From Gracilinema caldarium (GTDB lineage: Bacteria > Spirochaetota > Spirochaetia > Treponematales > Breznakiellaceae), in contig NZ_JAJUHW010000025.1 of NCBI RefSeq assembly GCF_029265695.1, positions 1 to 42,544 of the forward strand: 42,544 nt of DNA, read 5' to 3'. Positions within the stretch are counted from its first letter, which is position 1. Every line of letters starts with the position of its first letter. Both the position numbers and the translations under genes were made by a program. The notes below the pieces were generated by a model that did no database searches, had not been told where the DNA came from, and saw only the letters and a list, made by a program, of their open reading frames with translations. Shown in pieces: positions 6,244 through 18,067 of the stretch.

Positions 6244-8301
6244 ATGAAACAGGTGGTTAAACGCTCTGGTAAAATCGAAGCCTATGACCGGCTGAAGATT
6301 GAGGCTGCTGTCGGCAAGGCTTTCAAAGCTGTCGGAGTTTCCGAATTAGGCGAAAACGGAAAAAACAAGGTGCAGCTCATTGTGGATCGGGTTGAAGAAC
6401 TGCTGAAACTCATGATGAAGCAGCGCCACCCCAATTCTATCCCTGCCATAGAAGAAATACAGGACCTGGTGGAAACGGCCCTCATAGAGTTCCGGGAAAT
6501 CGCCGTAGCCAAGGCGTATATACTCTATCGTTCACGGCACGAGGCTATTAGGGACACCAAAAAACTTCTGGTTGATATTGATGCCACCATGGATGGCTAC
6601 CTGAACCAGTCTGACTGGCGTGTCAATGAAAACGCCAATGTAAATTACTCCCTTGGGGGACTTATTCTTCACAATTCAGGGACAATTACTGCCAATTACT
6701 GGCTTAAAAATATCTATTCAGAAGCGGTAGCTGAGGCTCACCGGAATGCGGATTTTCATATCCACGACCTCTCCATGTTTTCTGGCTATTGTGCCGGCTG
6801 GTCCCTTAGGCAGCTTATTCAGGAAGGACTCGGGGGCGTACCGGATAAAATTAGCTCCAAGCCGGCCCGTCACCTGAATACCCTTATGCAGCAGGCGGTG
6901 AACTTTCTGGGCTGCCTCCAGAATGAATGGGCAGGGGCCCAAGCCTTTAGTTCCTTTGATACCTATATTGCCCCCTTTGTAAAAATAGATAAGCTCACCG
7001 ATAAGGAAATTAAGCAATGCCTGCAAAGCTTTATCTTTGGAGTTAATACCCCCAGCCGCTGGGGAAGTCAGGCGCCATTTACCAATATTACCTTGGATTG
7101 GACCGTACCCCAGGATCTCCGGAACAAACCGGCAATTGTAGGCGGTAAGGAGATGGACTTTACCTATGGGGATTGCCAGCCAGAAATGGACCGTATTAAC
7201 AAAATTTTTATTGAACTCATGCTCGAAGGGGATGCGGCAGGCAGGGGCTTTCAGTACCCTATCCCAACCTATAACATCACCGCCGATTTCAACTGGGACA
7301 GCGATAACGCTCGGCTCCTTTTTGAAATGACCGCCCGATATGGTACTCCTTATTTCCAAAATTTTGTTAACTCTGATCTTGATCCAAGCGATGTCCGATC
7401 CATGTGCTGCAGGCTCCAGCTGGATAAACGGGAACTACGTAAACGGGGCGGCGGACTATTCGGTTCCGACGAACTCACTGGCTCTATTGGGGTGGTGACC
7501 ATCAACCTTCCCCGCATAGGATACTTGGCAAAAGACGAGGATGATTTCTTTCGCAGACTGAGTCGGCTCATGGATCTGGCCAAGGAAAGTCTTGCGACCA
7601 AACGGAAGGTAGTGAACAGACTACTTGAGGCTGGACTATTTCCCTATACAAAACGATACCTCAAATCGCTGGATAACCATTTCAATACCATCGGGCTTGT
7701 TGGCATGAATGAATGTCTTTTAAATTTCTTCGGCCCAGACTGCACCATCGCCACTACACAAGGCCAGACCTTTGCGCTTAAGACCTTGCAGTTCATGAGA
7801 AACAGACTTGCGGATTATCAGGAAGAGACCGGAGAGCTGTTTAATCTTGAAGCAACCCCTGCCGAATCAACATCCTATCGACTCGCAAAACATGATAAAA
7901 AACGGTTCCCCGATATTATCACCGCCGGAACTGATGAGCCCTATTATACCAATTCAACCCAACTTCCGGTGATGCTGACCGATGATATTTTTGATGCCCT
8001 GGATCTACAAGAAAGCCTCCAAGCATCTTATACGGGCGGTACGGTTTTTCATACTTTTTTAGGGGAAGCTATTGATGATTGGCGGACTTGCCGAAACCTG
8101 GTGAAATCTATTGCCCACAATTACCGGATTCCTTACTTTACCATCTCTCCAACCTTTTCTGTGTGTCCCGTTCACGGCTATCTGGCCGGCGAACACTTTA
8201 CCTGTCCTCTCTGCAAAGAAGAGCAGGTATCAGCAATACAAAAACGTATCGCCGCTTTGGAACAGGAGCGGGAAACATTATTACAAGGAGTTACAAAATG
8301 A
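6244..8301 (+). CDS. nrdD: Anaerobic (class III) ribonucleotide reductase, catalytic barrel lacking the glycyl radical segment
   Basis: NrdD reduces ribonucleoside triphosphates to deoxy forms without oxygen. Seen in 685 residues: an N-terminal ATP cone (VVKRSGKIEAYDRLKIEAAV), the barrel with FLGCLQNEWAGAQAFSSFD, a cysteine pair in RSMCCRLQL, and GSIGVVTINLPRIGYL, and a C-terminal metal-site region with CPVH near 641 and CPLC near 655. The chain then ends in a short charged helix. The glycyl radical motif (R-V/I-x-G-Y), expected 30-60 residues beyond the metal site in ordinary NrdD, is absent here and is found in the overlapping next gene. The stop codon TGA is part of an ATGA junction with that gene. 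Confidence 0.95.
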   Translation: MKQVVKRSGKIEAYDRLKIEAAVGKAFKAVGVSELGENGKNKVQLIVDRVEELLKLMMKQRHPNSIPAIEEIQDLVETALIEFREIAVAKAYILYRSRHEAIRDTKKLLVDIDATMDGYLNQSDWRVNENANVNYSLGGLILHNSGTITANYWLKNIYSEAVAEAHRNADFHIHDLSMFSGYCAGWSLRQLIQEGLGGVPDKISSKPARHLNTLMQQAVNFLGCLQNEWAGAQAFSSFDTYIAPFVKIDKLTDKEIKQCLQSFIFGVNTPSRWGSQAPFTNITLDWTVPQDLRNKPAIVGGKEMDFTYGDCQPEMDRINKIFIELMLEGDAAGRGFQYPIPTYNITADFNWDSDNARLLFEMTARYGTPYFQNFVNSDLDPSDVRSMCCRLQLDKRELRKRGGGLFGSDELTGSIGVVTINLPRIGYLAKDEDDFFRRLSRLMDLAKESLATKRKVVNRLLEAGLFPYTKRYLKSLDNHFNTIGLVGMNECLLNFFGPDCTIATTQGQTFALKTLQFMRNRLADYQEETGELFNLEATPAESTSYRLAKHDKKRFPDIITAGTDEPYYTNSTQLPVMLTDDIFDALDLQESLQASYTGGTVFHTFLGEAIDDWRTCRNLVKSIAHNYRIPYFTISPTFSVCPVHGYLAGEHFTCPLCKEEQVSAIQKRIAALEQERETLLQGVTK

Positions 8302-15138: not shown

Positions 15139-16101
15139 ATGTCTATCGATCACATACCCGAAAAACTGCTCACCTTTATATATGAGGGATCTTCTTTTAT
15201 AGTTGCGGGCCACAAGGAACCCGATGGGGACTGTGTGGGAAGTCAGTTAGCCCTCTGCTCAGCCTTAAAGCGTCTGGGAAAGAAGGCTGTCCCCTGTTCC
15301 GCAGGCCCCTTTAAGCGGCCTGAAATTGCCGGCTATGCAGAGCTCTTTTCTGCACAACCAACGGTCGGACCGGAGGATCGGGCTATTGTGATGGATTGCT
15401 CCAGTCTCGAAAGGACCGGCGACCTCGAACAATATCTAACCCATCTCCCCCTTGCAGTTATTGATCACCATGCTTCGGCAAATCCCAAAGGAGATGCGGT
15501 ATATTTACAGCCCTCTGCCCCATCGGTTACGGTCATGACCTTAGCCCTCATTGAGGCCCTTGGACTTGAACCTACAAAAGAGGAAGCGGAACTCCTTTTT
15601 TTTGGACTTTGTACGGATACGGGCTTTTTTAGACATATTGATTACAGCGGAGATTACGCCTTTGACGCCGCGAGCCGACTCATCCGATATGGAGCAAGTC
15701 CTAAAAGAACTTTTCAAAAAATTAACGGCGGTAAAAGTCTAGAATCCCGCATACTCCTGGGACTTATACTTTCTCGTACCGAGGCATATTTTGGGGGGAG
15801 ACTACTTCTCTCTTATGAAAACTTAGAAGACACCGAACGTTTCGGACTCCAGGGAAGGGATTCGGACATGCTCTACCAGCTTTTGCTTTCGGTATCCGAT
15901 GTAGAAGCGGTGGCGGTTATCCGGCAGGAAAGTCCCACAACCTGCACCGTCGGGCTGCGGTCCCTGGACGCGGTGGATGTTTCGCGGATCGCAGCACAAT
16001 TCGGCGGCGGTGGTCACAAACAGGCCTCCGGTTTTACCGCTGAAAATACGATTAAAAATCTTAAAGAAGAGCTTATCAGGGCATTTTCGGCAATCATGTA
16101 G
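15139..16101 (+). CDS. nrnA: DHH-DHHA1 phosphoesterase, NrnA type (nanoRNase/pAp phosphatase)
   Basis: Degrades short oligoribonucleotides (including pGpG from c-di-GMP turnover) and may dephosphorylate 3'-phosphoadenosine 5'-phosphate. The 320-residue length fits. The DHH metal motifs are present: HKEPDGDCVGS (Asp29, Asp31), VMDCSS (Asp86), DHHAS (109-111), and the DHHA1 substrate loop GGGGHKQASGF near the C-terminus. It lies nine bases after the M24 gene, last in this operon. A pGpG-clearing enzyme suits a genome with the PilZ protein downstream, but no cyclase gene is adjacent. Confidence 0.88.
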   Translation: MSIDHIPEKLLTFIYEGSSFIVAGHKEPDGDCVGSQLALCSALKRLGKKAVPCSAGPFKRPEIAGYAELFSAQPTVGPEDRAIVMDCSSLERTGDLEQYLTHLPLAVIDHHASANPKGDAVYLQPSAPSVTVMTLALIEALGLEPTKEEAELLFFGLCTDTGFFRHIDYSGDYAFDAASRLIRYGASPKRTFQKINGGKSLESRILLGLILSRTEAYFGGRLLLSYENLEDTERFGLQGRDSDMLYQLLLSVSDVEAVAVIRQESPTTCTVGLRSLDAVDVSRIAAQFGGGGHKQASGFTAENTIKNLKEELIRAFSAIM

Positions 16102-16114
16102 AGCAAAGCTATAA

Positions 16115-16130
16115 TTGTAACAAATTGTAA
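16115..16130 (+). repeat. Upstream 16-bp repeat, copy 1
   Basis: TTGTAACAAATTGTAA, identical to the copy at 16188-16203. It holds two TTGTAA half-sites ten bases apart and the overlapping dyads TTGT-a-ACAA and ACAA-a-TTGT. It lies about 190-205 bases before the predicted sigma54 start point, a place typical of activator sites. Confidence 0.6.
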
Positions 16131-16144
16131 CTAATTTTGCCCTT

Positions 16145-16167
16145 TGAGGCTCTTTTCCTCATTTTTT
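16145..16167 (+). terminator. Weak intrinsic terminator candidate after nrnA
   Basis: TGAGG (16145-16149) pairs with CCTCA (16157-16161), seven-base loop, followed by six T. The stem is only five pairs, so the call is tentative. Confidence 0.35.
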
Positions 16168-16187
16168 CTCCTTTTGTCCCTGTTCAT

Positions 16188-16203
16188 TTGTAACAAATTG
16201 TAA
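16188..16203 (+). repeat. Upstream 16-bp repeat, copy 2
   Basis: Exact second copy of TTGTAACAAATTGTAA, 73 bases (about seven helical turns) after copy 1 and some 116-131 bases before the predicted start of transcription. Confidence 0.6.
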
Positions 16204-16292
16204 ATACCCCTATTATCACCATCTCATTTAAATATTCTTATTATATATATCATAAAGACTTATCATATTAATGCGATACTATCATCCTTAGT

Positions 16293-16308
16293 TGGCATAA
16301 TTGCTGCA
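16293..16308 (+). promoter_or_regulatory. Sigma54-like -24/-12 promoter
   Basis: TGGCATAATTGCTGCA has GG and GC exactly 12 bases apart, as in the sigma54 consensus TGGCAC-N5-TTGCA. Transcription would start near 16319, leaving 18 bases that contain GGAGG (16325-16329) before the ATG at 16337. Treponemes are known to carry RpoN; whether this organism does is not visible here. Confidence 0.5.
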
Positions 16309-16336
16309 ATCTTAAAAAGCAAGACGGAGGCAGCAA

Positions 16337-17191
16337 ATGGAAGTAAATCCCCCCATGGAACAGCTATTAACCGGGCTCAAGAATGGCTCATTAAGCCAAA
16401 CTGATTTTGAAAAAAGAGCGCTCTCTCATCTATTACACAATCCGCATCGGTTTAGTCTTAAAGAATTGGCCCCCCATGACCGCATGGACTTTATATGCTT
16501 TTATTTCCCTCGATTTAGAAAAGCGGTAGAAACATATAAAGACACGGGCCACAGTTTTGATGCCTATATTCATCGAAGTATCCAGTATGCTCTGCGGGAC
16601 TATAGGGCAGAAGAACAGTTAAAGCATAAGGAAGAAACACAGATCTGGTACCAAGCAGAAGAATGTTCTCGAGAAATTCAGGAGGGGGCGACCGTACAGG
16701 AGATACAAGAACCGTATGATTATGAGGCACCTCCTCTTAAAATACGGAACCCTAAACAAGTCTTGCTCCTGACGCTCAAAGCATACCGCTATATTTCTCC
16801 GGATTTTTCCCGTAGAATTGCTCTATCCTTAGGGATCGAGCCGGAAAAACTTGAACATTGGATCAATGAAATCAGAATAAGACGGACTCAAATGGATACC
16901 CAGATCGATGCAGTCCAAGCAGCGCTTCAACGGTGCTATATACAAAAGCTTCGATTGGATCGACAAATACAATCCCATGAACTAGATCCGTTTATAAAAA
17001 CAAAACTGGAATGGCGGGCTGCAAAAAATTTAAGACGATTAGAAAACCTAACGGAACGGCTCAATACTATGAAAAAATCTGCCAGCAACCAAATGGTGGC
17101 GGATGTGCTTAAAATTCCCAAAGGAACGGTGGATGCGAATCTACACGCATTAAAACATAAATGGAAAAACCACGATGACCTGTACAACTAG
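16337..17191 (+). CDS. Unknown protein with sigma-factor-like N-terminal and C-terminal helix-turn-helix regions
   Basis: Not recognised as a named family. The 284-residue protein has no signal peptide or membrane segment. Residues about 45-95 (FICFYFPRFRKAVETYKDTG then FDAYIHRSIQYALRDYRAEE) resemble region 2 of sigma-70 family factors. The C-terminus (NQMVADVLKIPKGTVDANLH at about 251-270, then ALKHKWKN) reads as a region-4-type helix-turn-helix. The middle (residues 180-245) is charged and helical, perhaps coiled coil. It could be a divergent sigma factor or a DNA-binding regulator. GGAGG sits eight bases before the ATG. A sigma54-like promoter and duplicated upstream sites precede it. Confidence 0.6.
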   Translation: MEVNPPMEQLLTGLKNGSLSQTDFEKRALSHLLHNPHRFSLKELAPHDRMDFICFYFPRFRKAVETYKDTGHSFDAYIHRSIQYALRDYRAEEQLKHKEETQIWYQAEECSREIQEGATVQEIQEPYDYEAPPLKIRNPKQVLLLTLKAYRYISPDFSRRIALSLGIEPEKLEHWINEIRIRRTQMDTQIDAVQAALQRCYIQKLRLDRQIQSHELDPFIKTKLEWRAAKNLRRLENLTERLNTMKKSASNQMVADVLKIPKGTVDANLHALKHKWKNHDDLYN

Positions 17192-17230: not shown

Positions 17231-18067
17231 ATGCTGGGATACCGTCACGCCTTTCATGCTGGAAATCACGGTGATATCTTAAAACATTTTATCCTGTTTC
17301 ATAGTCTTGAATATTTAAGGCAGAAAGATGTACCTCTGCTCTATGTAGATACCCATGCGGGAGCAGGTTCATATCAACTTGAATCTGGATATGCGGCTCA
17401 AAACAAAGAATGGCTTGATGGATTCCAACGACTACGTCAAACTTTGAGCCCTCTGCCAGAAAGTTTAATACAGTTCAGAGACTTTCTAGAATCCTGGATT
17501 GCTCATACAGGTTCTTATCCGGGATCTCCTGCTATTGCGGATCATCTACTGCGGGAAACGGATCGCCGTATTTTTTTTGAAATGCATCCATCGGATTTTT
17601 TATTCTTAAAAGAAGCTTTTGAACATAAAAAACAAGTTTCAGTTTTAAATACTGATGGTTTTTCTGGACTAAAGGCATTCCTTCCGCCCCCATCGCGCAG
17701 GGCCTGTATTTTTATAGATCCTTCATATGAACTTGCAAGTGATTATGAAAAACTTTTGGAGATGATAAAAGATGCTTTACGGCGATTTGCAACTGGGACA
17801 TATCTCATTTGGTATCCCCTTTTATCACGGCCAGAGGCGAAAGAATTGCCAGAAAAATTGCTTTCCCTTTACTCCGGGAATCGCTGCAGTATCGAAATAC
17901 AGGTGACGGAAGCGCATGAACGGGGCATGTTCGGGAGTGGTGTGGTCATCTTTAATCCTCCATGGGTGCTGCACCGAATCATTCCAGAGGCAATACCTAT
18001 ACTTGCTGATATATTGAGTGTCAAAAGAGACAAACCAGAACCCAATTTTCGTTTTCAATTTTTTTAA
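17231..18067 (+). CDS. rlmJ: 23S rRNA (adenine-N6)-methyltransferase RlmJ
   Basis: RlmJ methylates the N6 of A2030 (E. coli numbering) of 23S rRNA. The 278-residue length matches. The family opening is clear: LGYRHAFHAGNHGDILKH, then LLYVDTHAGAGSYQL, which is the SAM-binding motif I region. The catalytic motif, DPPY in many N6-methyltransferases, appears as FIDPSYE near residue 161-167; a serine in the third place should be tolerated, as NPPY/DPPY variants are known. AGGA upstream serves as ribosome site. It follows the sigma-like gene by 39 bases. Confidence 0.93.
   Translation: MLGYRHAFHAGNHGDILKHFILFHSLEYLRQKDVPLLYVDTHAGAGSYQLESGYAAQNKEWLDGFQRLRQTLSPLPESLIQFRDFLESWIAHTGSYPGSPAIADHLLRETDRRIFFEMHPSDFLFLKEAFEHKKQVSVLNTDGFSGLKAFLPPPSRRACIFIDPSYELASDYEKLLEMIKDALRRFATGTYLIWYPLLSRPEAKELPEKLLSLYSGNRCSIEIQVTEAHERGMFGSGVVIFNPPWVLHRIIPEAIPILADILSVKRDKPEPNFRFQFF

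Follow-up and report, generated by a model that had tools for sequence, protein, structure and literature searches.

A probable sigma-54 promoter with conserved upstream direct repeats in front of a sigma-like gene in Gracilinema caldarium

Introduction

How is the gene of a 284-residue sigma-like protein switched on in Gracilinema caldarium, and could this gene be a step in a regulatory cascade? What is known of RpoN-to-sigma cascades in spirochaetes comes mainly from Borrelia. The Rrp2-RpoN-RpoS system of Borrelia burgdorferi is described as a cascade from sigma-54 to another sigma factor (PMC2940757, PMC3037356). It is a precedent for the present locus, for which a preliminary description had supposed a cascade of a kind not described before. 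By the same account, Borrelia rpoS has direct repeats by its promoter, TAAATTAAAT, which are bound by BosR, and enhancer-independent activation by Rrp2 has been reported in work cited there (PMC3037356).

Gracilinema caldarium (family Breznakiellaceae) is a cultured, free-living, treponeme-like species outside the Borrelia group. Its genome appears to contain a related arrangement in which three sigma or sigma-like genes are targets. One of the three belongs to a sigma-like family that has no name and that keeps its position beside nrnA in three families of the order. The locus offers a concrete sigma-like family with clear upstream control. The gene lies in the window, by which we mean the whole stretch of DNA that was analysed (42,544 nucleotides, a single contig); its genome is denoted G000, and features are listed in Table 1.

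Promoter and upstream repeats

In the element TGGCATAATTGCTGCA GG and GC are separated by 12 bases within a TGGCAYR-N5-TGC context, and the -12 half is slightly off consensus (CTGC, not TTGC). A start predicted 12 bases downstream of the C of the -12 element, at 16319, would leave an 18-base leader with GGAGG (16326-16330) before the ATG at 16337. Further upstream are two exact copies of the 16-bp sequence TTGTAACAAATTGTAA (16115-16130 and 16188-16203, 73 bp apart), each of which contains TTGTAA twice with a 10-bp period. Their centres are about 196 and 123 bp from the predicted start, the range tested for activator sites being about 80-200 bp. All these elements, including the spacing of GG and GC, the leader and the paired half-sites, had been named in the preliminary description and were found as it gave them. 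It had missed a hairpin of intrinsic-terminator-like form (16145-16161) which, followed by a T run, is located between both repeats and probably ends the nrnA transcript.

Table 1. Features of the locus and related sigma genes of the same genome
Feature	Position	Strand	Basis
nrnA-type DHH/DHHA1 phosphoesterase, conserved upstream neighbour	15139..16101	+	Pfam DHH and DHHA1
Distal upstream site TTGTAACAAATTGTAAC, two TTGTAAC half-sites, 10-bp period	16115..16131	+	sequence match
Intrinsic-terminator-like hairpin and T run, probable end of nrnA transcript	16145..16167	+	hairpin also in computed fold
Proximal upstream site TTGTAACAAATTGTAAA, 105 bp upstream of -24 box	16188..16204	+	distance compared in five genomes
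Probable sigma-54 -24/-12 promoter TGGCATAATTGCTGCA	16293..16308	+	pattern match, genome-wide pattern counts, conservation including other families
Predicted start and 18-base leader	16319..16336	+	placed from -12 element
284-residue sigma-like protein	16337..17191	+	profile matches in homologues, predicted model
rlmJ-type rRNA methyltransferase, downstream neighbour	17231..18067	+	Pfam RsmJ, synteny
RpoD/RpoS-like sigma genes	L269:2076-2957 (G000:C34), L270:1656-2519 (G000:C75)		-24/-12 immediately upstream

A search for further repeat sites covered the whole 3.04-Mb assembly (95% complete); with one mismatch allowed, it returned TTGTAACAAATTGTAA from no place but these two. When three positions were left free, the pattern gave 9 matches in G000 against 7 for the controls; such background counts mark the repeat as a local site rather than a regulon-wide one. 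With no other copy at up to one mismatch and no clear excess of the looser pattern over control, a regulon for the repeat is rejected. A third match to TTGTAAC-N3-TTGTAA was seen at 8281-8296 of the window on the minus strand, at the 3' end of an nrdD-like coding gene; it recurs in G002 and is probably a chance match in coding sequence.

The product and its gene neighbourhood

The gene order pepP-like, nrnA, 284-residue gene, rlmJ and hlyIII-like is conserved in many family members. The nrnA gene adjoins the gene in most family loci and also precedes it in loci of the order.

A confident AlphaFold2 model from 43 sequences (pLDDT 86.5, pTM 0.51) predicts a helical N-domain with a region-2-like fold in about residues 1-100, a flexible linker disordered at 117-128, a long helical hairpin (184-244) and a C-terminal HTH (251-283). 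VIA alignments of this part of the model list the region-2 structures of sigma E, AlgU, SigK and SigI6 at Z of 7-8 over 81-99 residues, values that helical models often reach by chance, but here the same family recurs over the same residues. At E up to 0.1, Sigma70_r4_2 was detected in 27 of 43 homologues and Sigma70_r2 in 7 of 43; more distant homologues match sigma profiles even less. With 14.6 bits for Sigma70_r2, the window protein stays below the curated Pfam cut-off of 24, and this sub-threshold match is all that Pfam found in it of the RpoS-type regions 1.2, 2, 3 and 4. Searches with the C-terminal fold returned mostly coiled coils and listed no region-4 structure, a result compatible with the presence of one. 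Foldseek gave no match under 0.001 for either model, a profile comparison with one group-2 sigma no convincing match, and a PDB sequence search with the product nothing meaningful.

Because the window protein passes no curated cut-off, we speak of a sigma-like protein and refrain from classing it among the sigma factors. The sigma-like character proposed in the preliminary description is supported by the r4_2 and r2 matches in homologues, the predicted model and the region-2 alignments. The comparison with sigma regions 2 and 4 that it had suggested brought out the resemblance to region 2 at these Z values and no structure of region 4, and the idea of a working sigma factor finds no support at the curated cut-offs. 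Like the ECF (group 4) sigma factors sigma E, AlgU and SigK, the protein would combine a region-2 fold with a C-terminal HTH; unlike them, it lies below the cut-offs, has the predicted helical hairpin between these domains, and its gene has no adjoining anti-sigma gene.

Conservation of promoter and repeats

How far is this arrangement kept among relatives? Within the family we compared 77 promoters of the gene, accepting the -24/-12 element at up to one mismatch and the repeat at up to two. The repeat accompanies all nine sigma-54-type promoters and 3 of the 68 others, where the three matches are weak, at two mismatches each (Fisher p 1.4e-9 for the association, which spans six genera, in a test that ignores relatedness). 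From the proximal repeat to the -24 box there are 105, 105, 105, 104 and 102 bp in G000, G002, G003, G001 and G025, which represent four species of the window's genus and one other genus. The DNA in between has 25-49% ungapped identity in all pairs except G000/G002 (79%). Extra repeat copies are found 73, 74, 62/63, 63 and 51 bp further up in the same five genomes, i.e. 4.9-7.0 helical turns at 10.5 bp, and at 85 bp in G018; these are too few independent cases for firm phasing. Leader length varies from 18 to 49 bases across relatives, so that the geometry is fixed relative to the promoter rather than to the reading frame. The leaders of L005, L006 and L007 are 20-26 bases longer than that of the window and contain short hairpin-like inserts, for example GGCCTAGCAGGCC in G002.

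Beyond the family, a -24/-12 element stands at the nrnA junction in each of eight relatives, which belong to two further families of the order. It is an exact TGGCAYR-N5-TGC in six of them (G056, G047, G052, G043, G049 and G046; five by strict scan), each expected in at most 0.6% of shuffles, and has one mismatch in G042 and G038. One of the two families has the motif GTAAC-N5-GTAAC in each of its three members, with two copies separated by 51 bp in G042. The genes behind these junctions are of the same kind, with a KGTVDS/KGSVDS-type C-terminus; that of G043 was not read through in one frame. Since the element stands at the nrnA junction in two other families, sigma-54 control of the gene is likely ancestral.

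In most other genera of the family, the gene and rpoN are retained and both the -24/-12 element and the repeat are missing. The loss of these elements in orthologous regions, which the preliminary description had named as evidence against its proposal, is seen in these genera, whereas they are kept in the genus and partly in other families. In the other promoter type, ATGAC-N4-GTCAT precedes a CCGATA-like box by about 45 bp, and it appears that most other genera exchanged the sigma-54 promoter for this type. Its layout resembles that of CRP/FNR-type activation. It was seen upstream of the orthologue in L009, L012, L019, L020, L021, L127, L128 and others, and in G033 (L020) the palindrome is doubled. 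In six relatives the motif ATGACANNTGTCAT gave no clear genome-wide excess over control that would indicate a regulon. Loss of rpoN as the cause of the exchange is rejected, rpoN being present in nearly all relatives (57 of the 59 genomes in the set). G013 and G023 have the sigma-like gene and no Sigma54_DBD match; G013 is 98% complete and five sigma-54 activator genes remain in it. The family presents a natural example of promoter exchange in which the gene has remained in place together with its neighbours.

RpoN, activators and the binder of the repeats

The genome encodes rpoN (Sigma54_DBD E 4.7e-55), whose absence would have spoken against the preliminary proposal, and nine strong activators with the sigma-54 interaction domain. 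The promoter pattern TGGCAYRNNNNNTGCW, chosen from orthologous promoters of the sigma-like gene, has 29 matches in the genome versus 4 for the reversed control pattern; the corresponding ratios are 29:2, 27:3 and 25:6 in G001, G003 and G018. G025, despite the same layout, shows no excess (13 versus 13). Many matches precede plausible targets (amtB-like, glutamine-synthetase-like, hsp20-like, peroxiredoxin-like, rubrerythrin-like and lipoprotein-like genes, named by reading translations), and some, inside long open frames, are probably chance. Together with the conserved position and spacing, the rpoN gene and the activators favour the sigma-54 promoter claimed at the outset, and the conserved, roughly helically spaced repeats fit its proposed activator sites. 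The element TGGCATAATTGCTGCA is thus probably a promoter of sigma-54 type with an upstream activator region, for which RpoN dependence and the start site are predictions.

In a tree of 107 activators, groups L035, L036, L038 and L039 occur in both promoter classes and L040 in 4 of the 7 genomes with a sigma-54-type promoter. Groups L037, L042 and L043 are each present in 6 of these 7 genomes and in none of 8 others, and the gaps fall in the incomplete assemblies G135 and G167. Phylogeny narrows the activator candidates from nine to these three, without a choice among them. L037 and L042 have a Fis-type HTH, and L043 (L043:1117-2208, G000:C1) consists of receiver, AAA+ and lid only, with no C-terminal HTH. 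An activator of AtcR type (LytTR) is reportedly found in Treponema denticola; no LytTR domain was detected in L037, L042 and L043, the three of the nine activators that were scanned, and this lead is rejected.

Fis-type activators usually bind dyads. The sites described here read as direct repeats, and the protein that binds them may therefore differ from the activator itself. In the most probable of the alternatives, which we consider possible though clearly less probable than our own reading, the promoter is of sigma-54 type, a separate regulator (e.g. OmpR/PhoB-like or Fur-like) binds the repeats and helps or represses, and an activator without a DNA-binding domain opens the complex from solution, in the way reported for Rrp2 with BosR at Borrelia rpoS. 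Consistent with it, every lineage in which the site is present has it as a direct repeat of 10-bp period, the HTH-less L043 is distributed as the sigma-54-type promoter is, and Borrelia rpoS has its BosR-bound direct repeats beside the -24/-12 element (PMC3037356). However, L037 and L042, with their Fis-type HTH, share the distribution of L043, and the genes that adjoin L043 (ctpA-, rsmE- and wecG-like, again by reading translations) include no obvious repeat-binding protein.

Proposed mechanism

Our own reading, to which we give a probability of about 0.7, is the following. RNA polymerase with RpoN would be held closed on TGGCATAATTGCTGCA. A DNA-bound regulator would occupy the two TTGTAAC-N3-TTGTAAC direct repeats, which lie about 123 and 196 bp upstream and face almost the same side of the helix. 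The complex would be opened by an AAA+ sigma-54 activator, probably via a DNA loop. The short-leader transcript would yield the 284-residue sigma-like protein, which may redirect further transcription in an RpoN-to-sigma-like cascade. This reading draws, at the level of sequence, on the promoter, the repeats, their conservation and spacing, rpoN, the activators and the sigma-like fold of the predicted model. The start site, RpoN dependence, looping, the identity of the binder and the sigma activity of the product are its presumed parts.

Could the product itself bind the repeats and control its own promoter, as a sigma-derived DNA-binding regulator and not as a sigma factor? An autoregulatory site should be confined to its own promoter, as the repeat is in this genome, but a single-target site suits any dedicated regulator; the product ends in an HTH and matches no curated sigma profile, yet in other genera the gene and its KGTVDS helix persist without the repeats. 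We regard autoregulation of this kind as unlikely. An ordinary sigma-70 promoter in this AT-rich stretch, with the -24/-12 match unused, is very improbable, as the two weak sigma-70-like matches in the region compare with 1.6 in shuffled sequence and one of them overlaps the proximal repeat, and the -24/-12 element is kept across three families, at a fixed distance from the repeat within the genus.

A broader picture, which we offer as a rather doubtful extension, would be an order-wide ancestral RpoN switch driving an undescribed sigma-like family next to nrnA, in which two proteins share the enhancer function, one an activator that lacks a DNA-binding domain and the other a binder of the direct repeats, and in which the whole promoter was replaced by another type in most other genera of the family.

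Relation to known cascades and other sigma genes

As in the Rrp2-RpoN-RpoS system, a spirochaete -24/-12 promoter would here drive a gene resembling the sigma-70 family, with direct repeats near the promoter. Unlike Borrelia rpoS, this gene has no Pfam match to region 1.2 or 3 and its product has a long predicted helical hairpin, and the sequence and distance of the repeats differ. In the EbpA-RpoN pathway of Leptospira interrogans, amtB and lipoprotein genes have sigma-54 promoters that work with an activator, and amtB-like and lipoprotein-like genes lie behind sigma-54 sites here too; a sigma-like target, unlike here, is absent from the portion of PMC12655853 that describes this system. The literature searched, of partial coverage, contained no description of the present gene and repeat, which is weak evidence of novelty.

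A closer parallel to the Borrelia cascade is provided by the two RpoD/RpoS-like genes L269 and L270. The genome has nine strong Sigma70_r2 genes, of which these two, each with all four regions 1.2, 2, 3 and 4, have sigma-54 sites just upstream (C34:54529 and C75:121125). Orthologous-looking sigma genes with sigma-54 sites are present in G001 (both), G003 (one) and G025 (one). These sites strengthen the view that RpoN stands above other sigma factors in the clade. A sigma gene in G009 likewise lies behind a sigma-54 site.
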